Positions 52,529 through 64,000 of a DNA stretch of 64,000 nt are shown piece by piece; the stretch's first letter is position 1; the number at the start of each line of letters is the position of its first letter. A program made the position numbers and the translations under genes. The DNA comes from Salinisphaera hydrothermalis C41B8 (lineage in GTDB: Bacteria > Pseudomonadota > Gammaproteobacteria > Nevskiales > Salinisphaeraceae), in the NCBI RefSeq assembly GCF_000732535.1, contig NZ_APNK01000007.1, forward strand, positions 1 to 64,000. Direction: 5' to 3'. The notes below the pieces were generated by a model, which saw only the letters and a list, made by a program, of their open reading frames with translations, was not told the origin of the DNA and did not search any database.

Positions 52529-55500
52529 ATGAGACCGCAGCAGTCACACACTCCGGAGCTTGTCGATAGCCGGCAGGCCATACGCAACTATTACCTGGCC
52601 GACGAGTACCGGGTAATCCACGAGATGATCGCCGGCGCGCAGCTGTCCGCCGCCGAACGCGAGGCGATTTCCGCCCGCGCGGCCGATCTGGTTCGCCGCG
52701 TGCGCAAGAACGCCGCGCCCACCATCATGGAAAAATTCCTCGCGGAATACGGCCTGACGACCAAGGAAGGCGTCGCGCTGATGTGTCTGGCCGAGGCGCT
52801 ATTGCGCGTGCCGGACAACATGACGATCAACGATCTGATCGAGGACAAGATCACCTCCGGCGCGTGGAGCACGCACCGCGGCAAGGCATCGTCTTCGTTG
52901 ATCAACACGGCCACCGTGGCCTTGTTGATGACCAGCAACCTGCTGAAGGATTCCGAGCGCAACAGCGTGGGCGAGACGCTGAACAAGCTGCTCAAGCGCT
53001 TCGGCGAGCCGGTGATTCGCAAGGTCGCCAACCAGGCGATGAAGGAGATGGGCCGCCAGTTCGTGCTCGGCCGCGACATCAAGGAGGCCCAGCGCGAAGC
53101 CAAGGACTACATGGCCAAGGGCTATACCTATTCCTACGACATGCTGGGCGAAGCCGCGCGCACGGACGCCGATGCCAAGCATTATTTCGAATCGTACTCG
53201 AACGCCATCGACAGCATCGCCAAGGCCTGCAAGGGCGACGTCCGCAAGAACCCCGGCATTTCGGTGAAGCTGTCGGCGCTGCTCGCCCGCTACGAATACG
53301 GCAACAAGGACCGGGTGATGAACGAGCTGCTGCCGCGGGCGCGCACGCTCGTGAAAAAAGCGGCCGCGGCGAACATGGGCTTCAACATCGACGCCGAGGA
53401 GCAGGATCGTCTGGACCTGTCGCTCGACGTGATCGAGGCCATCGTGTCCGATCCGGAACTGAAGGGCTGGGACGGCTTCGGCGTGGTGGTCCAGGCCTAC
53501 GGCAAGCGCGCGGCCTTCGTGATCGACTGGCTCTATGGCCTGGCCGAAAAATACGACCGCCGCTTCATGGTGCGCCTGGTCAAGGGCGCGTACTGGGACG
53601 CCGAGATCAAGCGCGCCCAGGTGATGGGGCTCAACGGTTTTCCCGTGTTCACCCGCAAGGCCTGCAGCGACGTGTCGTTCCTGTCGTGTGCGACCAAGCT
53701 GCTGAACATGACCGATCGGATCTACCCGCAGTTCGCCACGCACAACGCGCATTCGGTGTCGTCCATTCTCGAGCTGGCCAAGGCCAACGGCGTGGACAAC
53801 TACGAATTCCAGCGTCTGCACGGGATGGGCGAATCCCTGCACGACGAGGTGATCAAGGTCAGCGGCGTGCCCTGCCGTATCTATGCGCCGGTCGGCCCGC
53901 ACAAGCATTTGCTGGCCTATCTGGTGCGTCGCCTGCTGGAAAACGGCGCCAACAGTTCGTTCGTGAACCAGATCGTCGATACCAGCATCACGCCGGAAGA
54001 AATCGCCAAGGACCCGATCGAGACGGTCAAGTCGATGGGCGAAAACATTTCCAGCCGGGCGATCGTCCATCCGTTCAAACTGTTCGGCGAGCAACGGCGC
54101 AATTCCAAGGGCTGGGACATCACCGACCCGGTGACAATGGCCGAAATCGACGCGGGCCGAGAGCCCTATCGCGACCACGCGTGGACGGGCGGCCCCATGA
54201 TCGCCGGCCCGGTCTCCGGGACGGAAATACAGGTTGTACACAACCCGGCCGACCCGAACGACGTCGTCGGCCGCGTGACCCAGGCCTCGGAACAAGACGT
54301 CGACACCGCGATCGCCGCGGCCCAGGAGGGTTTCAAGCGCTGGTCGGCCAAGCCCGCCGAAGAGCGCGCGGCCTGTCTGCGCAAGGTCGCCGATCTGTAC
54401 GAAGAACATGCCTACGAGCTGTTCGCTCTGGCCACCCGCGAAGCCGGCAAGTCGCTGGCCGATGGTATCGCCGAGATCCGCGAGGCCGTGGATTTCGCGC
54501 TCTATTACGCCAACGAGGGCGAGCGCTACAAGGACAGCGGCGACGCCCGCGGCGTGATGGTTTGTATCTCGCCCTGGAATTTCCCGCTGGCGATTTTCAC
54601 CGGCCAGATCATGGCCAATCTGGTGGCCGGCAACGCGGTGTTGGCCAAGCCCGCCGAGCAGACGGCGCTGCTGGCCGCGCGCGCGGTGGCCTTGATGCAC
54701 GAGGCCGGCATTCCGGACGACGTGATCCAGCTGTTGCCAGGCGCGGGCGCCACCGTGGGCGGCGCGCTGACCTCCGACCCGCGGGTGGCCGGTGTGTGCT
54801 TTACCGGCTCCACCGCGACCGCGCAGCGTATCAACAAGGCGATGACGGAACATATGGCGCCGGATGCCCCGTTGGTGGCCGAAACCGGCGGCATGAACGC
54901 GATGATCGTGGATTCCACCGCGCTGCCGGAGCAGGTCGTACGCGATGTGCTGGCATCCTCGTTCCAGAGCGCGGGGCAACGCTGTTCTGCCCTGCGCATG
55001 CTGTATCTGCAGAAGGATATCGCCGACAGCTTGCTGGAAATGCTTTACGGCGCGATGGACGAACTGGGCATCGGCGATCCGTGGCTGCTGTCGACCGACG
55101 TCGGCCCGGTGATCGATGAAACGGCGCGCAAGAAAATCGCGGACCACTGCGCCAAACACGAAGCCAACGGCCGATTGCTGAAGAAACTGCCGATCCCGGA
55201 ACAGGGCACGTTCGTGTCGCCAGCCGTCATTCGGCTCGACGGCATCGAGGACATGGAAGAAGAAATCTTCGGCCCGGTGCTGCACGTCGCAACGTTCGCC
55301 GCCAAGGACATCGACAAGGTGGTGGACGCCGTCAACGCCAAGGGCTACGGCCTGACGTTCGGCCTGCATACGCGCGTCGACCGGCGCGTGGAGCGTGTCT
55401 CGAAGCGGATCAAGGTCGGTAATACCTACGTCAATCGGAACCAGATCGGCGCCATCGTCGGCTCGCAGCCCTTCGGGGGCGAAGGCTTGTCCGGTACCGG

Positions 55501-56158
55501 CCCGAAGGCCGGCGGCCCGCACTATGTCCGGCGGTTCCTCAAGGGCGAAACCGTCACGGTGCCGGCGGACACCGACAGCAAGCCGGTGACCGCCGAGGCG
55601 TTGCAGAAACTCATCGACGAGGCCCAGTCGGCCACGGTCCAGCCGCCCGAAGAACGCATGGCCGCCTTGCAGCCCCTCTTCGCGCAGGCGCCGGCCCCGC
55701 TGGACGCTGAAACCGAAGAATTACCCGGGCCGACCGGGGAACTGAACCGCCTGTCGAATCATGCCCGCGGCGTGGTGCTGTGTCTGGGGCCCAACAAGCA
55801 AACCGCACTCGAGCAAGCCGCCACCGCGTTGTCGCAAGGCAACAAAGTGGTGGTGATCGCGCCCGGGGTGGCAAGCGAGGTAGAGCGGGCCGCGAAGGCC
55901 GGATTACCCATCGTCGGGGCAGACGGCCATGTACAGCCGGAGGCGTTGAGCACGGTGACGGGTTTCGAAGCGGTGGCGAGTTCTGCCGAACAGGACACGC
56001 TGCGCACCTATCGACGGGCCCTGGCCCAACGGGAGGGTGCCCTGCTGCCGCTGATCACCGAACACAGGCTCGACCAACGGTTCGTGATCGAGCGCCATCT
56101 CTGTGTCGACACCACGGCCGCCGGCGGCAACGCGAGCCTGATCGCGGCGTCGGAATAA
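52529..56158 (+). CDS. putA: Bifunctional proline dehydrogenase / L-glutamate gamma-semialdehyde dehydrogenase
   Basis: 1209 residues. No N-terminal ribbon-helix-helix, so it is enzyme-only and not an autorepressor like E. coli PutA (1320). PRODH barrel about residues 130-500 (NPGISVKLSAL, AEEQDRLDLSLDVIEAI, RLVKGAYWDAEIKRAQ, THNAHSVSSIL, YAPVGPHKHLLAYLVRRLLENGANSSFVNQ), then a full ALDH module with SPWNFPLAIFTGQI, AETGGMNAMIVDSTALPEQV and catalytic Cys in SAGQRCSALR, EEIFGPVLHV, NRNQIGAIVGSQPFGGEGLSGTGPKAGGP. The last 190 residues are the ALDH-like C-terminal domain of long (type B) PutAs. Oxidises proline to glutamate via FAD and NAD. Confidence 0.97.
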   Translation: MRPQQSHTPELVDSRQAIRNYYLADEYRVIHEMIAGAQLSAAEREAISARAADLVRRVRKNAAPTIMEKFLAEYGLTTKEGVALMCLAEALLRVPDNMTINDLIEDKITSGAWSTHRGKASSSLINTATVALLMTSNLLKDSERNSVGETLNKLLKRFGEPVIRKVANQAMKEMGRQFVLGRDIKEAQREAKDYMAKGYTYSYDMLGEAARTDADAKHYFESYSNAIDSIAKACKGDVRKNPGISVKLSALLARYEYGNKDRVMNELLPRARTLVKKAAAANMGFNIDAEEQDRLDLSLDVIEAIVSDPELKGWDGFGVVVQAYGKRAAFVIDWLYGLAEKYDRRFMVRLVKGAYWDAEIKRAQVMGLNGFPVFTRKACSDVSFLSCATKLLNMTDRIYPQFATHNAHSVSSILELAKANGVDNYEFQRLHGMGESLHDEVIKVSGVPCRIYAPVGPHKHLLAYLVRRLLENGANSSFVNQIVDTSITPEEIAKDPIETVKSMGENISSRAIVHPFKLFGEQRRNSKGWDITDPVTMAEIDAGREPYRDHAWTGGPMIAGPVSGTEIQVVHNPADPNDVVGRVTQASEQDVDTAIAAAQEGFKRWSAKPAEERAACLRKVADLYEEHAYELFALATREAGKSLADGIAEIREAVDFALYYANEGERYKDSGDARGVMVCISPWNFPLAIFTGQIMANLVAGNAVLAKPAEQTALLAARAVALMHEAGIPDDVIQLLPGAGATVGGALTSDPRVAGVCFTGSTATAQRINKAMTEHMAPDAPLVAETGGMNAMIVDSTALPEQVVRDVLASSFQSAGQRCSALRMLYLQKDIADSLLEMLYGAMDELGIGDPWLLSTDVGPVIDETARKKIADHCAKHEANGRLLKKLPIPEQGTFVSPAVIRLDGIEDMEEEIFGPVLHVATFAAKDIDKVVDAVNAKGYGLTFGLHTRVDRRVERVSKRIKVGNTYVNRNQIGAIVGSQPFGGEGLSGTGPKAGGPHYVRRFLKGETVTVPADTDSKPVTAEALQKLIDEAQSATVQPPEERMAALQPLFAQAPAPLDAETEELPGPTGELNRLSNHARGVVLCLGPNKQTALEQAATALSQGNKVVVIAPGVASEVERAAKAGLPIVGADGHVQPEALSTVTGFEAVASSAEQDTLRTYRRALAQREGALLPLITEHRLDQRFVIERHLCVDTTAAGGNASLIAASE

Positions 56159-56734: not shown

Positions 56735-59512
56735 ATGGATAAAACGACTCGGGCCGAAGCGCCGCATACCGCGCTGGGCTTCTATCACAAGATTTCGCAT
56801 CTGCGCGCGGATACCTGGAATGCACTGACGAACGATCTGGCCGATCTGGAGCGCCTTGGGAAGTCGAACCGGAGCCGCCGGCTGATCAAGGCGATCCGGA
56901 TCAAGCTGACACGGCTCGAGATCATCGAGGATTACCACGCTTTTCCGTCGAGCGAGGATTTCCGGCATCTCTGGTTGCTCTTCAACCAGGGCGATTACGC
57001 GCAGCTGGGGCGCGTGGTGAATCGGTTGGTCCGTGCGCTGGTCAGCGAGTCGTACCGACGGCGGCCGATCGACCTGAGCGATACCGACGCCGAGGATCTC
57101 GAGAGCTACGACGCGCTCGATCGCTTCCGGCGCGGCCACCCGAGCTTCAATTCGTCGAGCCAGCCGTACTTCGAAGTTCTGCTGGTCGATAATCTTTCGT
57201 CCCAGGAAAATGAGGTCGTGCGCGACGCGTTCTATCGCATGCGGCGTACGGAAGACCGGTTCGTGTACGACGTGGTGACCGTACGCAGCTTCGAGGACGC
57301 GCTGATCGCGGTGCTGGTCAATCCGAACATCCAGGCCTGCCTGATCCGCTACGAGTTCCCGTACAAATCGAAGTACAACCTGAGCGCGATCCGCGGCGCC
57401 CTGCAGGGGCTGTCGGAAACCGATATCGAGAACCAGCCCGCGGCCGAGCGCAGCATCCAGCTGGGCGCCATGATTCATCAGCTGCGTCCGGAGATCGACC
57501 AGTTCCTGGTGACCAACGGCGAGGTCGAAACCACGGCCAGCCGCGATATCGATCACTTCACGCGTATCTTTTATCGCGAAACCGACTATATCGAGCAGCA
57601 CCACACCATCCTGCGGGCGATCGACAATCGATACCGCACACCGTTTTTCGATGCCCTGCGCGAATACAGCCGCAAGCCCACCGGCGTATTCCATGCCATG
57701 CCCATTTCGCGGGGCAAATCCATCACCCGGTCGCACTGGGCCGGGCAGATGATCGATTTCTACGGCATCAATATCTTTCTGGCCGAAAGCTCGGCGACCT
57801 CCGGCGGGCTCGATTCGCTGCTGCAGCCCTACGGCCCGATCAAGAAAGCCCAGGAGTACGCGGCCCGCGCCTTCGGCTCGCGCGAGAGTTTCTTCGTCAC
57901 TAACGGCACGTCGACGGCCAACAAGATCGTCGTGCAAGCGCTGGTCAAGCCGGGCGATGTCGTGCTGGTGGATCGCGATTGCCACAAGTCGCACCACTAC
58001 GGGCTGGTGCTCAGCGGGGCCTACGCGAGCTATCTGGATTCGTACCCGCTCAACGATTACTCCATGTACGGCGCGGTGCCGCTCGAGACGATCAAGAAGA
58101 CACTGCTGGCCTATAAACGTGCCGGCCGGCTCGATCAGGTCCGCATGCTGCTGCTGACCAACTGTACGTTCGATGGCGTGGTGTACGACCCGCGCCGGGT
58201 GATGGAAGAGTGTCTGGCGATCAAACCGGATCTGATGTTCCTGTGGGACGAAGCCTGGTTCGCCTTCGCCACGTTCAATCCGACCTATCGACCGCGCACG
58301 GCCATGAACGCCGCCAGCACGCTGCGCGACCGGTATCGCAGCCGGGCCTATCGCCGGGAATACGCGGCCTGGAAAGCCAACTTCGACGCGATGGATCCGG
58401 ACGACGACGCCACCTGGCTGGGCCAGCGCCTGATGCCCGATCCGGATCAGGTCCGTATTCGGGTCTATGCCACGCACTCGACGCACAAGACACTGACGTC
58501 ACTGCGCCAGGGCTCGATGATCCATATCTACGATCAGGACTACCGGCAGAAAGTGGAAGCCACCTTCCACGAAGCCTATATGACCCATACCTCGACCTCG
58601 CCGAACTATCAGATTCTGGCGTCGCTCGATGTGGGGCGCATGCAGGCCGAGATGGAAGGCTTCGAACTGGTTAACGCCCAGATCGAAACCGCCCTGTCGC
58701 TGCGCGAACAGATCTATAACCACTCGCTGCTGAAAAAATACTTCCGGGTCCTCAAGAACGCCGACATGATCCCGGCCGAATATCGCCAGTCGGGTGTGGA
58801 CAGCTATTACGACCGCCACCGCGGTTGGCATCAGATCGAAGAAGCCTGGTCGCAGGATGAATTCGTGGTCGATCCGACCCGGGTGACGATCGCCATCGGC
58901 AACACCGGCGTCGACGGTAATCAGTTCCGCACCGATTACCTGATGAACCAGTTCGGTATTCAGATCAACAAGACCTCGCGCAATACCGTGCTGTTCATGA
59001 CCAACATCGGCACTTCGCGCAGTTCCATCGCTTATCTGATCGACGTACTGATCCGCCTGGCCAAGGATTTCGAACGCCGCTGGGAAGATAGCGGGCGCAG
59101 CGAACGCAAGGTGATCGAGCAGCGGGTGACCTCCCTGACTCAGGATCTACCGCCTCTGCCCGATTTCAGTCGCTTCCACGACGCGTTTCGGCCGTCGCCG
59201 GACAGCACCACGCCGGAAGGCGATATCCGGCGGGCGTTCTTCCTCAGCTACGACGACGAAAACACCGATTATCTGCGCTTCGACAACGGGGCGCTGCAAC
59301 GGGTCATGGAAGAAGGCCGCGACGTGGTCTCGGCGAGTTTCGTCATTCCCTACCCGCCGGGCTTTCCGGTGCTCGTGCCCGGGCAGGTCATCAGCCACGA
59401 AATTCTTGATTTTCTGAAGGCGCTGGACGTCAAGGAAGTGCATGGGTACCGGCCGGAGCTCGGGCTTTTGGTTTTCAATGAACAGGCATTGTCAAAGGCG
59501 TCGAATCCATAG
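56735..59512 (+). CDS. Orn/Lys/Arg decarboxylase-family PLP enzyme, long form
   Basis: 925 residues, longer than the usual 715-755 because about 160 residues precede the receiver-like wing domain (PYFEVLLVDNLSSQENEVVRD from about 165). PLP-binding K585 in ATHSTHKTLTSLRQGS, with FFVTNGTSTANKIVVQALVKPGD, RDCHKSHHYGLVLSGA and LMFLWDEAWFAFATF typical of fold-type I acid-amino-acid decarboxylases. C-terminal domain PPGFPVLVPGQVIS is intact. It would produce a diamine or agmatine in the cytoplasm; substrate among Orn/Lys/Arg not decidable. First gene of the run up to the window end, 225 bp ahead of the amidase. Confidence 0.92.
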   Translation: MDKTTRAEAPHTALGFYHKISHLRADTWNALTNDLADLERLGKSNRSRRLIKAIRIKLTRLEIIEDYHAFPSSEDFRHLWLLFNQGDYAQLGRVVNRLVRALVSESYRRRPIDLSDTDAEDLESYDALDRFRRGHPSFNSSSQPYFEVLLVDNLSSQENEVVRDAFYRMRRTEDRFVYDVVTVRSFEDALIAVLVNPNIQACLIRYEFPYKSKYNLSAIRGALQGLSETDIENQPAAERSIQLGAMIHQLRPEIDQFLVTNGEVETTASRDIDHFTRIFYRETDYIEQHHTILRAIDNRYRTPFFDALREYSRKPTGVFHAMPISRGKSITRSHWAGQMIDFYGINIFLAESSATSGGLDSLLQPYGPIKKAQEYAARAFGSRESFFVTNGTSTANKIVVQALVKPGDVVLVDRDCHKSHHYGLVLSGAYASYLDSYPLNDYSMYGAVPLETIKKTLLAYKRAGRLDQVRMLLLTNCTFDGVVYDPRRVMEECLAIKPDLMFLWDEAWFAFATFNPTYRPRTAMNAASTLRDRYRSRAYRREYAAWKANFDAMDPDDDATWLGQRLMPDPDQVRIRVYATHSTHKTLTSLRQGSMIHIYDQDYRQKVEATFHEAYMTHTSTSPNYQILASLDVGRMQAEMEGFELVNAQIETALSLREQIYNHSLLKKYFRVLKNADMIPAEYRQSGVDSYYDRHRGWHQIEEAWSQDEFVVDPTRVTIAIGNTGVDGNQFRTDYLMNQFGIQINKTSRNTVLFMTNIGTSRSSIAYLIDVLIRLAKDFERRWEDSGRSERKVIEQRVTSLTQDLPPLPDFSRFHDAFRPSPDSTTPEGDIRRAFFLSYDDENTDYLRFDNGALQRVMEEGRDVVSASFVIPYPPGFPVLVPGQVISHEILDFLKALDVKEVHGYRPELGLLVFNEQALSKASNP

Positions 59513-59737
59513 GGGATCGGCGCAGTCGCGCGCCGCGCTGCGATTGGGGCGGCGCGCAATGAAGCAACGGCACGAGCGGCCTCGGCGCTCGTCCCCTTTG
59601 GATACACAAGACGTTAGGTGGAGTAGCGCGGTATCGCGAGCATCGTGAAATCTGAATTTATCCGTTTTTTCAGGGCGTTCGGCACCGTGTTGCTTTACCC
59701 TTTTACTTAATCGATCGAAATTGTGAAGAAGAGGACT

Positions 59738-60688
59738 ATGACGCCGTTCGCTATTGCAGGCATCCAGATGTACGTTTCCGCCACGAGCAGCAACGTCGAA
59801 GGTATGAGAAACCGAATCGACGCGCTCATGGCAGTTTATCCATGGGTCCAGATGGTCGTGTTCAGCGAGCTGGCCGTGTGTGGCCCTCTGACCTCGAAAG
59901 CGCAGTCGCTGCCCGGGTCGGCCGAGACCGCACTGGCCGAAGCCGCGGCGAAACACCAGATATGGCTGGTCACCGGCTCGATGTTCGAGCGGGCCGAGGA
60001 CGGCAGTATCTACAATACGGCCTCGGTCATCGACCCGAATGGCGACGTCGTGGGTCGCTACCGCAAGATGTTCGTCTTTGCGCCCTACGAACAGGGTGTC
60101 GCGCCCGGCGAGGAATTTTTCGTATTCGACGTGCCAGGCGCAGGCCGCTTCGGCATGACGATCTGCTACGACACCTGGTTCCCGGAAGTCACGCGGACGC
60201 TGGCCTCCATGGGCGCGGAGGTCATCCTGCGCCCGACGCTGACCGGCTCGATCGATCGCGATGTCGAACTATCCATCACGCGGGCATCCGCTGCCATAAA
60301 CCAGTGTTATCTGTTCGATATCAATGGCCTGGGCGCCGGCGGCAATGGCCGTTCGATCGTATGCAATCCGCATGGTCAGGTCCTGCACCAAGCCGGCAGC
60401 AGCGAGGAATTCATCCCGCTGGAGATCGACTTCGACAATGTTCGCCGCTCGCGTGAACGTGGCGTGCTGACCCTGGGCCAGCCGCTCAAGAGCTTCCGCG
60501 ACAAGCCGGTTGAATTTCCCATTTATCAAGCGGGCGCCCATTCCCCGTATCTCGATTCACTCGGTCCGTTGACAAAGCCCCAGCGGCTATCTATCAATCA
60601 ATGTTCAAGCGATACCGATGGCGCGTCATCCGGCGCCTATTCCGCCGCCATGTCCGACGCCGATACGCCGACGCAAGAAAACTCATAA
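59738..60688 (+). CDS. Nitrilase-superfamily carbon-nitrogen hydrolase
   Basis: 316 residues from the ATG at 59738, with AAGAAGAGG just before it; a GTG at 59723 would add five residues. Complete triad E44 (VFSELAVCGP), K110 (RYRKMFVFAPYEQGV) and C143 (MTICYDTWFPEVTRTL). The first core differs clearly from AguB in this window. The C-terminal 40 residues (QCSSDTDGASSGAYSAAMSDADTPTQE) are low-complexity, probably disordered. Same-strand neighbour of the decarboxylase and the ATP-grasp gene (14-bp gap). Probably cleaves or transfers an amide or carbamoyl group of a pathway intermediate. Confidence 0.88.
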   Translation: MTPFAIAGIQMYVSATSSNVEGMRNRIDALMAVYPWVQMVVFSELAVCGPLTSKAQSLPGSAETALAEAAAKHQIWLVTGSMFERAEDGSIYNTASVIDPNGDVVGRYRKMFVFAPYEQGVAPGEEFFVFDVPGAGRFGMTICYDTWFPEVTRTLASMGAEVILRPTLTGSIDRDVELSITRASAAINQCYLFDINGLGAGGNGRSIVCNPHGQVLHQAGSSEEFIPLEIDFDNVRRSRERGVLTLGQPLKSFRDKPVEFPIYQAGAHSPYLDSLGPLTKPQRLSINQCSSDTDGASSGAYSAAMSDADTPTQENS

Positions 60689-60702
60689 AGGGGGAACCAG
60701 CC

Positions 60703-62205
60703 ATGGGGCATCCGAATACCGACGCCACTCAATCCACTCAAACGCTCCATGGCCTTTCCGATATACGGCGGTTCTTCCGTCGTAACGAAACGCCGATTTA
60801 TTTCATCAGCGCGACGAATTTCAATCTGCTGGGCGCCGATGAATGGGTACACCATTTCAAGTACATCAATTACATCGACTGCTTCGACGGTCAGCATCCG
60901 AATCTCTTCGTGCCGCCCGAGATTGCGCACAAGGAATTCCAGAGCATCGAGGACATCAACAACTACCTGCTCGAGCACAAAGCGGTAGCCGACTATGTCC
61001 ACAGCCGTGGTCCGGGCAAGGCGCTCTTCCTGATGTTCGACGAGACCACCGAGCAGCTCGCCCGCGAGCTGGATCTCGAAGTCTGCTTGCCGCCGGCCAG
61101 CCTGCGTCAACATCTGGACGACAAACTGGTGACCACCCGCATCGCGGAAGCCGCCGGCATCAAATGCGTGCCCAATGTCATGGGGACCGTGGACTCTTAC
61201 GAAACGCTGCGTCGCCTGTCCGCCGACCTCGGCGACGAGCTGGTGGTTCAGACCGCGTTCGGCGATTCGGGCCATACCACGTTCATGATTTCCGACGAGG
61301 AAGACTGGGCCGAGCACGCGGACGAGATCGTCGGTGCCGGCGACGTGAAGATCATGAAGCGGATCAAGCCGCGGGGCACGGCGGTCGAAGCCTGCGTCAC
61401 GCGTCATGGCACCATCGTGGCGCCGATCATGACCGAACTGGTCGGCTTTCCCGAACTCACGCCCTATGAAGGCGGCTGGTGCGGTAACGAAATCTTCGCC
61501 AACGCCTTTACCCCCGAGCTACGTGATCAGGCCCGCGACGCCACGCTCGCCATGGGCGAATGCCTGAAGCGTGAAGGCTACCGTGGCTATTTCGAACTCG
61601 ACTTCCTGATCGATCGCGACACCGACGAGCTCTATCTCGGCGAGATGAACCCGCGGATCACGGGCGCCAGCTCGATCACCAATCACGCGGCGTTTGCGCT
61701 GTCCGACATGCCGTTGTTCATGTTCCATCTGCTGGAGTGGATGGGCGTGGACTACACGCTCGACGTGGACGAGATCAACGCGCGCTGGGCCGACCCGGTC
61801 AACATCGATTGCTGGGGCCAACTGGTCATCAAGCACACGGTCGACTCGGTCGGCGTGATCACCCAGGCGCCGCCAACCGGCATCTGGTGGATGGACGGCG
61901 ACGGCAACGTCAACTTCTCCCGCTACGATACGCATCGCTATCACGTGGAAAGCGAGGCCGAGGCGCTGTTCGTGCGCATCGCCGGCATCGGCGATTACTG
62001 GTACGAGGGCGCGGACCTGGGTATTCTCGTCACTCGAGGCCGTCTGATGACCGACGATTTCGAGTTGAATGAGCGCGCCCGCGCCTGGATCGACGGCATC
62101 ACCGCGCATTTCCGGGCTTCGGCGCCCACCGCCGAGAACGTGGGGCATCTGGCTCCCGGCGCGCTGCAGGCCCATCCGGCCCCGGGATCGTTCAAGCTGC
62201 TGTAA
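60703..62205 (+). CDS. ATP-grasp ligase, biotin-carboxylase-like
   Basis: 500 residues from the ATG at 60703 (AAGGGGGAA upstream); the frame extends upstream but overlaps the amidase C-terminus. ATP-grasp layout: LRQHLDDKLVTTRIAEAAGIKCVPNV (pre-grasp Lys), VVQTAFGDSGHTTFMISDEEDW (glycine-rich loop), MKRIKPRGTAVEACV, and the metal-binding FELDFLIDRDTDELYLGEMNPRITGASS. No biotin-attachment or carboxyltransferase domain, so it is not an acyl-CoA carboxylase; carboxylate-amine ligation is more likely. Last 60 residues lack motifs. Confidence 0.88.
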   Translation: MGHPNTDATQSTQTLHGLSDIRRFFRRNETPIYFISATNFNLLGADEWVHHFKYINYIDCFDGQHPNLFVPPEIAHKEFQSIEDINNYLLEHKAVADYVHSRGPGKALFLMFDETTEQLARELDLEVCLPPASLRQHLDDKLVTTRIAEAAGIKCVPNVMGTVDSYETLRRLSADLGDELVVQTAFGDSGHTTFMISDEEDWAEHADEIVGAGDVKIMKRIKPRGTAVEACVTRHGTIVAPIMTELVGFPELTPYEGGWCGNEIFANAFTPELRDQARDATLAMGECLKREGYRGYFELDFLIDRDTDELYLGEMNPRITGASSITNHAAFALSDMPLFMFHLLEWMGVDYTLDVDEINARWADPVNIDCWGQLVIKHTVDSVGVITQAPPTGIWWMDGDGNVNFSRYDTHRYHVESEAEALFVRIAGIGDYWYEGADLGILVTRGRLMTDDFELNERARAWIDGITAHFRASAPTAENVGHLAPGALQAHPAPGSFKLL

Positions 62206-62460
62206 TACAAGGCACTGGAGTCGACCGCGAGCGGGAGTGCGATGCGCAGCGCTTGCGGCCGACTCGGCTCTGGCGGCTGCAGAAAACGCGCCGTCGGCCG
62301 ATACGAAACCGCGAACGGGCTTTTATCTGTTCGTGATGCCCTCATACTGGGGGCTGTGGCGCTTGGCCGGCACCTCGTGTCATCGAGGTATTCACGCCTG
62401 TATTCGGCCCTTCTTCAAGCCAGGCGCCTCCCCGAGCACGCCAGACCAGAGGTTAACGGG

Positions 62461-63477
62461 ATGAGCGGTCCAACTTCATCAACGCTGCACGCGCCCGGCG
62501 CGTACCGCCTGGCCTCGATCGCAGAGGACGCGCCCGGCCCCAAGTGGCGAGCCCTGTTCAACGCGCATTGGCCCCAGTATCAGACCTGGTTTCTGTCCGA
62601 AGGCGAACTCGCGCGCCCGGGATACATGACGTCGGTACGCCATCTGCGCCAGGCGATGCCCGAGCTCATGCCGGTTTACGAGCAATTGGTCGAACTGGCC
62701 GGCGGCGGCGATCTGGCCGCGCGCTTCCTGAGTTTCTATCGGCCACCGCCCTATCTGCTGGGTTGCTCGCAAGCCGTATGGCGCGGCCCACATCCGCTGC
62801 TGGTGCGCAACTACGACTACAGTCCGATCCTGTTCGAATGGGCGTTGCTCAAGACATGCTGGCTGCGCCCCGTGATTGCCATCAGCGACTGCCTCTGGGG
62901 CGTGCTGGACGGTATCAACGACGCCGGTCTGGCCATATCGCTGGCCTTTGGCGGGCGTAAAACCACGGGTGATGGTTTCGGCGTGCCGTTGATCGTGCGC
63001 TATCTGCTGGAAGTGTGCGACGACGTTCGGCAAGCCTGCCTGGTGTTGCGGCGCATCCAGGTGCACATGGCGTACAACCTGACGTTGCTGGATCGATCCG
63101 GCGTTTTCGTCACCGCTTATCTGGCCCCCGATCGTAAGCCACGCTTCGTGCGCTCGCCCGTCAGCACGAACCACCAGGATCGTGTCGAATGGCCGGCCTA
63201 CGCGCGCATGAGCGCCAGCATCGAGCGCCGAACCTTCCTCGAAGACCGGCTGGCCGATCGTCACGAGACCGCGACGCGTTTCGTGAATCGGTTTCTGCAG
63301 CCGCCGATCCATCGTGTCCGCTACGATCGCGCATTCGGCACGCTCTACACGGCCATCTATCACCCGACCGAGGGACGGGTGGAATATCGCTGGCCCGGCG
63401 GCCTGCGCTTGCAACAGTCCTTTGCCTCCTTCCACGAAGGACAAACGCCCGTGCATCTGACGCAATCGGCAGCCTAG
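62461..63477 (+). CDS. C45-family acyltransferase/hydrolase (isopenicillin acyltransferase-like Ntn fold)
   Basis: 338 residues from the ATG at 62461. The nucleophile is probably C102 in LLGCSQAVW; cleavage at G101-C102 would mirror Gly102-Cys103 autoprocessing of isopenicillin-N acyltransferase. Further family blocks: RNYDYSPILFE, WGVLDGINDAGLAISLAFGGRK and VSTNHQDRVEWP. It probably hydrolyses or transfers an amide bond, in line with the amidase and ligase next to it. The 255-bp gap upstream has no gene. The stop TAG is the first bases of a short repeat-tip sequence. Confidence 0.85.
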   Translation: MSGPTSSTLHAPGAYRLASIAEDAPGPKWRALFNAHWPQYQTWFLSEGELARPGYMTSVRHLRQAMPELMPVYEQLVELAGGGDLAARFLSFYRPPPYLLGCSQAVWRGPHPLLVRNYDYSPILFEWALLKTCWLRPVIAISDCLWGVLDGINDAGLAISLAFGGRKTTGDGFGVPLIVRYLLEVCDDVRQACLVLRRIQVHMAYNLTLLDRSGVFVTAYLAPDRKPRFVRSPVSTNHQDRVEWPAYARMSASIERRTFLEDRLADRHETATRFVNRFLQPPIHRVRYDRAFGTLYTAIYHPTEGRVEYRWPGGLRLQQSFASFHEGQTPVHLTQSAA

Positions 63478-63502
63478 GTCGTGTCGTCACGAGATACGCC
63501 CT
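63475..63502. repeat. Tip-only copy of family 1 inverted-repeat element
   Basis: TAGGTCGTGTCGTCACGAGA (two mismatches from the family 1 tip), followed by TACGCCCTA, the opposite tip's last bases. It looks like an element deleted to its ends. Its TAG is the stop codon of the C45 gene. Confidence 0.6.
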
Positions 63503-63577
63503 AGCGCACGATCCGGCCATCGCTCGCACCCAAAGCCACCGAGTGAACATCCCGCCCACCACGTCGGGACGCAGTGT

Positions 63578-64000
63578 ATGCAGACCTCCGGCGATACCAG
63601 TCGCCACGACCTAACCGCCCGCCCCTGGCATATCGTCGGCGCGGGCCGCATCGGCGCGTTGGCCGCCTTTTATCTCCAACGTGCCGGCGCCCAAACGATT
63701 GGGGTCCGCCCCGGGTCGGCGCATACACGACGCTTGTCGATCGGCTTCGACCAGCACGAGGACGGTGCGGGCTCACACCTTGCCCTTCGGGTCATTCCAC
63801 CGAGCGAATGCGCATCGGTCTCTCGACTGATCGTGGCCTGCAAGACACCCTATACCGACGCCGCGCTGGCCCGGGTATCGCTGACCGACGACGCGACCGT
63901 CGTGCGGCTGCAGAACGGGATGGGCAGTCTCGACGGCCGGATCACCGGACATCAGCGGATGATTGGTGCCGTGACCGCCAGTGCCGTGATGAGCGAAACG
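63578..64000 (+). CDS. Ketopantoate-reductase-like (PanE/ApbA) protein, 3' partial
   Basis: 141 residues from the ATG at 63578, open to the window edge. N-terminal Rossmann motif WHIVGAGRIGALAAFYLQRAG, then LIVACKTPYTDAALARV (catalytic Lys of the family in VACKT) and VVRLQNGMGSLDGRI (the conserved NG-G). NADPH-dependent 2-oxoacid reductase is the family activity. The C-terminal domain, which would set substrate, lies outside the window. Likely part of the decarboxylase-amidase-ligase-C45 run. Confidence 0.8.
   Translation, partial: MQTSGDTSRHDLTARPWHIVGAGRIGALAAFYLQRAGAQTIGVRPGSAHTRRLSIGFDQHEDGAGSHLALRVIPPSECASVSRLIVACKTPYTDAALARVSLTDDATVVRLQNGMGSLDGRITGHQRMIGAVTASAVMSET

Follow-up and report, generated by a model that had tools for sequence, protein, structure and literature searches.

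What could a decarboxylase, a nitrilase, an ATP-grasp ligase and a C45-family protein, encoded next to one another in the genome of a Salinisphaera, be doing together? The genes lie in positions 1 to 64,000 (forward strand) of contig NZ_APNK01000007.1 of Salinisphaera hydrothermalis C41B8 (GCF_000732535.1), a stretch of 64,000 nucleotides that was analyzed as a whole and is called here the window. All on the plus strand, they encode a pyridoxal 5'-phosphate (PLP) decarboxylase of the Rv2531c type (56735-59512; OKR), a carbon-nitrogen hydrolase, putatively an amidase (59723-60688; NIT), an ATP-grasp ligase (60703-62205; ATPG) and an N-terminal-nucleophile (Ntn)-type hydrolase/acyltransferase (62461-63477; C45). 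A first-pass annotation of the sequence had grouped these four genes, together with a PanE-like gene downstream, into one pathway set, and the presence of the five same-strand genes was confirmed by profile matches and coordinates. It is near certain that OKR, NIT, ATPG and C45 form a real, conserved and mobile module. What the module does can be answered only tentatively: it may make and break an amide formed from a small omega-amino acid, for which gamma-aminobutyric acid (GABA) is the likeliest candidate.

The conservation of the unit was analyzed starting from ATPG. A search against named genomes returned 287 matches, and the analysis retained the best 80, a sample that leans to close relatives; in most of these 80 loci OKR, NIT and C45 adjoin ATPG where the contig is long enough. 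Adding 45 further stretches and dropping five repeats yielded 120 loci, among which a few near-copies remain. The gene maps were drawn with our own open reading frame (ORF) picker, which missed some genes, and the neighbor counts quoted are tblastn recounts unless stated otherwise. ATPG is flanked by at least 6.5 kb of sequence on both sides in 82 loci (well-flanked loci); among these, OKR lies near ATPG in 75, C45 in 80 and NIT in 73, with an amidase-signature enzyme (AMD) in 2 more; OKR and C45 are both present in 73/82, and OKR, C45 and NIT in 66/82. The association was also found in 398 genomes drawn evenly from the phylum, the window genome included, where ATPG (E ≤ 1e-20) was detected in 11 genomes and OKR (E ≤ 1e-90) in 17, with both in all 11 ATPG genomes (Fisher P 1.4e-17).

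Conserved synteny in unrelated genera, the check that the first-pass annotation had proposed, was found for the four families in several phyla, with Pseudomonadota, Bacteroidota, Planctomycetota and Deinococcota all among the carriers of the unit. Its internal order varies. NIT-OKR-ATPG-C45 is the arrangement of 47 of the 120 loci, NIT-ATPG-C45-OKR of 25 and OKR-ATPG-C45 of 18, the others bringing the number of patterns to 15, some of them produced by contig ends. Occurrence is patchy as well, with 3/41 genomes in a search among relatives (window genome included), 9/337 in one class, 6/63 in one order and 40/151 in a gammaproteobacterial family, f16. A quick tree built from 117 ATPG proteins comprises Pseudomonadota, Bacteroidota, one Planctomycetota row and one Deinococcota row, and under a midpoint root its Salinisphaera rows group with Bacteroidota and Trueperaceae, apart from the other Pseudomonadota (SH-aLRT 96). 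The closest named relative among the best 80 matches is a Salinisphaera metagenome-assembled genome (L020), with an ATPG 90% identical to that of the window. Compared with the f16 copies, the median identity of the window proteins is about 80% for OKR (with L103), about 60% for NIT, about 57% for ATPG and about 53% for C45. OKR and the NIT-ATPG-C45 trio of the window thus seem, as judged from these sequence comparisons, to have had different histories and to have been brought together in a locus of mosaic ancestry, which argues for a coupling beyond shared descent.

The PanE-like gene (63578-64493, plus strand, 304 amino acids; TIGR00745 160 vs a cut-off of 141) does not share this conservation and was ruled out as a member of the unit, given that tblastn gave a match to it at E ≤ 1e-5 in 0/120 other loci. 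The proposed set of five thus stands for four genes and falls for the fifth. This gene crosses the window end and, when the sequence was extended past 64000 as had been suggested, proved complete to 64493; it is followed on the contig by a 130-amino-acid ORF and then by genes mostly on the opposite strand.

The composition of the unit is not rigid. Since loci without OKR exist (7/82), OKR is not indispensable to it. AMD was found near ATPG in 5/120 loci, none of which contains NIT (0/5), and this swap of NIT for an unrelated amidase-signature enzyme supports an amide-hydrolyzing role. A family of small proteins turns up repeatedly in the vicinity of ATPG, C45 and the amidase that replaces NIT (L183 5778-6506, L192 9018-9389, L193 11699-12118 and L031 12527-13006), with no Pfam match in the two members tested. 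ATPG is shortened or split in some genomes, being of 217 amino acids with C45 adjoining in L191 and lying in pieces on two contigs of one genome in L162 and L164, which suggests decay or assembly breaks.

The key residues are intact in all four window proteins. OKR (925 amino acids; PF01276, E 1e-78) has its PLP lysine at K585, within STHK, and an alignment with 10 ordinary decarboxylases, drawn from 6 genomes and partly near-copies, shows that it retains the fold-I PLP site, i.e., the STHK lysine, the DEAW aspartate and the CHK histidine. These STHK, DEAW and DCHK or NCHK motifs are common to OKR and the E. coli-type enzymes LdcI, AdiA and SpeC, but OKR differs from the latter in having FHAxPxxR(G/A) for WHxPGHxGG and Asn for LdcI Glu526, and in scoring far below the equivalog cut-offs (best NCBIfam decarboxylase family 216.6 vs 968). 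Four residues are invariant in those rows of the OKR family that have a residue at the position, R326 (98/98), R591 (98/98), N745 (97/97) and R749 (97/97), at positions where the ordinary decarboxylases have G, S, E and F/L, respectively, in 10/10. N745 aligns with LdcI Glu526, a position taken from the alignment ranges, and its equivalent in the Lactobacillus ornithine decarboxylase is presumably about residue 532. In lysine and ornithine decarboxylases this Glu binds the distal amine of the substrate. Glu526 is not named in the excerpts on residue roles available from PMC8503589, PMC7866039 and PMC4832331. The best solved relative of OKR is Rv2531c of M. tuberculosis (PDB 9n0n/9n0o; E 7.5e-251, 838 bits, residues 13-921), a full-length match that keeps R326, R591 and N745 and has Ile for R749; its activity is given as unknown, and the protein is termed distantly similar to arginine decarboxylases, in the available excerpt of PMC12910592.

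The first-pass annotation had taken OKR for a producer of a di- or polyamine. This product is doubtful, since the acidic pocket residue of the Lys/Orn type has been lost and three invariant arginines have been gained, and the closest relative is Rv2531c; these pocket differences make an ordinary diamine-forming decarboxylase less likely. The genomes that carry OKR without ATPG (6 of the 398, four of one genus), whose OKRs are about 46% identical, offer another view of this family. An Asp-Al_Ex-like exchanger adjoins OKR in 5/5 such genomes fetched, representing three genera (Pfam-confirmed in L215, L216 and L218). The known aspartate-alanine exchanger swaps an amino acid for its own decarboxylation product, and a Rv2531c-type OKR together with the exchanger (L215-L219) possibly forms a decarboxylation-antiport pair. 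A search of open-licence PMC papers for AspT exchangers found nothing. In L218 an aminotransferase-fold protein, taken for an aspartate decarboxylase, also lies beside OKR. From the pocket changes, the exchangers beside OKR and the glutamate-making PutA beside the unit (see below), we infer that an acidic or glutamate-derived substrate is to be favored over a basic one. Citrulline, glutamine and N-acetyl-diaminobutyrate were considered as candidates on a par with glutamate.

The ORF of ATPG opens at 60601, and a better start lies at 60703, preceded by GGGGGAACC. With 750.7 vs a cut-off of 684, ATPG scores as a member of NCBIfam NF005096, 'biotin carboxylase', a name that is an annotation only. 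Pfam and NCBIfam profile searches listed no biotinyl domain, in line with the first-pass annotation. Its AlphaFold model (pLDDT 85.5) has the overall fold of biotin carboxylase, PurK and PylC, which it matches about equally well (Z about 22-25, with PylC at 24.4 and a PurK-type enzyme at 24.6) at 9-16% identity, keeping E314, N316 and R318. The RxQVEH segment carries the catalytic Glu of biotin carboxylases, and the RIQVEH of biotin carboxylase (7kct) reads RITGAS in ATPG, in a weak secondary alignment segment; on this ground a true biotin carboxylase was rejected.

The C45 ORF opens at 62242, with 62461 as its likely start. The protein (PF03417; NF040521 157.1 vs a cut-off of 85) has its nucleophile, C102, after a putative propeptide and contains the RNYD motif; C102, R116, N117 and D119 are invariant in 25 rows. 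The closest structure to its model (pLDDT 90.8) is Penicillium isopenicillin N acyltransferase (2x1c; TM 0.71, 14% identity), which has the same fold and the Ntn cysteine, while the sequence relation is weak, with no phmmer match at E 0.1. The simplest reading of the pair, from sequence and models, would be that ATPG makes an amide and C45 cleaves or moves the acyl group. NIT (PF00795 CN_hydrolase), which may start at GTG 59723 or ATG 59738, has the complete E49-K115-C148 triad that had been noticed before, with conservation of at least 99% for each residue across 87 rows, and scores below every NCBIfam cut-off listed. Right behind the C45 stop codon, at 63473-63507, a stretch of 28-33 bases, with 91-93% identical copies elsewhere in the genome on three further contigs, is probably a short dispersed intergenic repeat.

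An indication of the metabolism that the unit may serve comes from its neighbors in f16, which by its gene content and an excerpt of one paper we take to be Halomonadaceae. From this family, in which 40 genomes have ATPG, 25 loci were fetched, and 23 of them have DoeA and DoeB within 7 kb of the unit, which is surrounded there by the equivalents of the Halomonas elongata doeABX-doeCD genes of ectoine catabolism. The f16 map runs DoeA, DoeB, an AsnC/Lrp regulator and NIT-ATPG-C45-OKR, and continues with an aldehyde dehydrogenase and a class III aminotransferase; EutB and EutC come next in some of the maps. In one such locus (L105) the equivalog scores are above the cut-offs for DoeA (670/613), DoeB (492/403), EhuR (600/480) and EutB (466/413); DoeC, DoeD and the AsnC regulator were assigned by position and blastp likeness rather than by an equivalog. 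In H. elongata itself the doeA, B, X, C and D genes are consecutive (Helo_3665-3661) and the unit is absent, as described in an excerpt of PMC3187862, and the inserted block goes unmentioned in the excerpts of this and four other papers (PMC5320631, PMC13188858, PMC6815383 and PMC5924519).

Outside f16, 58 well-flanked loci were available, with a GabT-type gene near 14, a GabD-type gene near 9 and a DctM-type uptake gene near 12. In one of the loci (L053) both GabD (843/828) and the GABA transaminase TIGR00700 (596/507) exceed their cut-offs. An aminotransferase lies near 37/82 well-flanked loci in the ORF-picker count, but in most cases it is the DoeD-type enzyme that belongs to an ectoine operon of f16. 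Other genes recurring beside the unit in some loci encode an XRE-cupin regulator and a USP protein. In Thiothrix and Thiofilum, NIT-ATPG-C45 is followed by a permease, a ureohydrolase, a 5-guanidino-2-oxopentanoate decarboxylase (AruI, 755 vs a cut-off of 500 in Thiothrix L029), an aldehyde dehydrogenase, a D-amino-acid dehydrogenase and an ornithine-racemase/arginase-like fusion, the Thiofilum set being assigned by likeness; a search of the Thiothrix and Thiofilum genomes detected no Rv2531c-type OKR. Since genes for the conversion of arginine via guanidinobutyrate to GABA adjoin the trio there and OKR is missing, GABA would have another source in these bacteria. The fusion of L029 (15561-17420) has an ornithine-racemase-like N-terminal part (390 bits vs a cut-off of 480) and an arginase-like C-terminal part (79/228).

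In the window, PutA (52529-56158, plus strand; NF008869 1445 vs a cut-off of 747), which converts proline to glutamate and belongs to the context rather than to the core, lies upstream of the unit. It adjoins the unit in all three Salinisphaera-type loci, upstream also in L111 and downstream in L020; the PutA proteins of L020 and L111 are 87% and 86% identical to that of the window, and this neighbor is lineage-specific. Downstream on the window contig, two minus-strand genes, one for a further nitrilase-like protein (L005 10135-11040) and one for an XRE-cupin regulator (L005 11297-11959), are related to genes adjoining the unit in some other genomes. The readable contexts of the unit have one compound class in common, GABA and its relatives.

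On this basis, a route can be proposed in which OKR would strip the alpha-carboxylate from an amino acid whose side chain is acidic or neutral, most likely glutamate or a derivative, yielding GABA or a GABA derivative. ATPG would spend ATP to join a carboxylate and an amine, and C45, once self-activated at its cysteine, would cleave or transfer the acyl group added by ATPG. NIT, or the amidase-signature enzyme in some genomes, would hydrolyze an amide, freeing ammonia or an amine, and GabT/GabD, or DoeD/DoeC in the ectoine operons, would channel the omega-amino acid into central metabolism. A role of C45 in deacetylating gamma-N-acetyl-diaminobutyrate in the ectoine operons was set aside, as it leaves the loci without ectoine genes unexplained. 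Nothing observed points to the beta-lactam-like or pantothenate-like amide considered in the first-pass annotation, which had likewise given no named pathway with this gene set; the open-licence PMC papers searched contained neither a named pathway nor any description of the OKR-NIT-ATPG-C45 set.

Several points weigh against an omega-amino acid amide, or against GABA in particular. The substrates of all four enzymes, the way in which the flux runs and the sequence of the steps are proposed rather than observed, and R326, R591, N745 and R749 would line the substrate pocket only as far as alignment can place them. N745 does not rule out arginine, because AdiA lacks the acidic residue too (Thr in 2vyc). 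In the ectoine operons beta-alanine fits as well as GABA, because the pathway there ends in aspartate and not in glutamate. The aminotransferase or semialdehyde dehydrogenase genes (GabT, DoeD, GabD, DoeC and KauB types) lie near a minority of the non-f16 loci (19/58), and the window differs from the doe arrangement in that a genome-wide profile search found no DoeA over the cut-off. Moreover, the ATPG of the unit was found in only 3/14 genomes searched of the window's own genus, and among the well-flanked loci OKR is not near ATPG in 7/82 and neither NIT nor AMD is in 7/82.

The alternative that survives best, although we consider it rather unlikely, is a catabolism of diamines with an acyl protecting group, in which OKR would be an Arg/Orn/Lys decarboxylase, ATPG would acylate the diamine, the free end would be oxidized to an acid, C45 would deacylate and GabT/GabD would finish. 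The model is the Puu pathway, in which putrescine is gamma-glutamylated, processed and hydrolyzed to GABA. The logic of ligating, processing and hydrolyzing is alike, but the Puu ligase and hydrolase belong to other families than those of the unit; no recurring PuuB-like oxidase was noticed in the unit or among the clustered neighbors, no search having been aimed at one, and NIT would have no evident role. OKR does lie within the Orn/Lys/Arg family, and the likeness to arginine decarboxylases reported for Rv2531c fits such a role; against it stand the loss of the Lys/Orn pocket residue and the three arginines gained. A ureohydrolase above the agmatinase cut-off (174) adjoins the unit in L029 (210) and L074 (214), and is labelled also in the maps of L022, L025, L033 and L185, yet Thiothrix appears to make GABA without a diamine. 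The window contig itself carries, at 71592-74730 (L005 15593-18731), a gene similar to the gamma-glutamyl-GABA hydrolase PuuD (203 vs a cut-off of 266) and a gamma-glutamylputrescine-synthetase-like gene (213 vs 650), both below the cut-off, so that a Puu-type route next door is possible.

Less probable still is that the decarboxylation takes place on a tethered substrate. Tethered decarboxylation is known from the synthesis of the butirosin side chain by BtrJ, BtrK and BtrH. Outside antibiotic biosynthesis, ATPG would load the gamma-carboxyl of glutamate on an amine, OKR would convert the gamma-glutamyl amide into a GABA amide, and C45 would transfer or hydrolyze the latter, or C45 and NIT would dismantle it. 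Such a coupling would agree with the presence of OKR in 11/11 ATPG genomes of the 398, with the order patterns of 80/120 loci, where OKR directly precedes ATPG, and with the fit of ATPG to PylC, an amino-acid amide ligase, about as good as to PurK-type enzymes; the exchange of Glu for N745 would be compatible with a substrate whose side chain is neutral. BtrK is a decarboxylase of a glutamate residue, but it is listed, in the same excerpt of PMC8503589, among decarboxylases that we read as having the alanine-racemase fold, different from that of OKR. The two genes also occur apart, ATPG without OKR in the 7/82 loci mentioned above and OKR without ATPG in six genomes, though the OKRs of the latter are only about 46% identical.

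We give the same low weight to the possibility that the unit builds an amide product, e.g., an osmolyte, a storage compound or a signal, that C45 and NIT merely recycle. An ATP-dependent ligase with hydrolases makes a make-and-recycle pattern, the ectoine operon of f16 encloses the unit, and several of the named hosts appear, from their names or usual habitats, to be marine or adapted to salt. The known neighbors are, however, catabolic (ectoine degradation, GabT/GabD and the DctM-type uptake gene), and Aquitalea, presumably a freshwater genus, carries the trio too. Finally, that the four genes are incidental neighbors with separate functions, as holds for the PanE-like gene, is practically excluded, being already refuted for the core by the Fisher test and by the recurrence across several phyla and gene orders.

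Through the unit, four enzyme families with poor annotation acquire a common, testable task. One of its members, ATPG, is annotated as 'biotin carboxylase' at NCBI though the carboxylase motif is missing, and another belongs to the group of Rv2531c, so that a decarboxylase type with a solved structure lies in this set; if the tethered decarboxylation were true, it would give this type a first function. In part of f16, whose members, if correctly identified, are of industrial interest for ectoine, the block marks a so far unstudied step that either belongs to ectoine degradation or borders on it. Tethered decarboxylation would, if true, also open a new way to GABA in central nitrogen and osmolyte metabolism, or add a GABA-amide metabolite that is new there.

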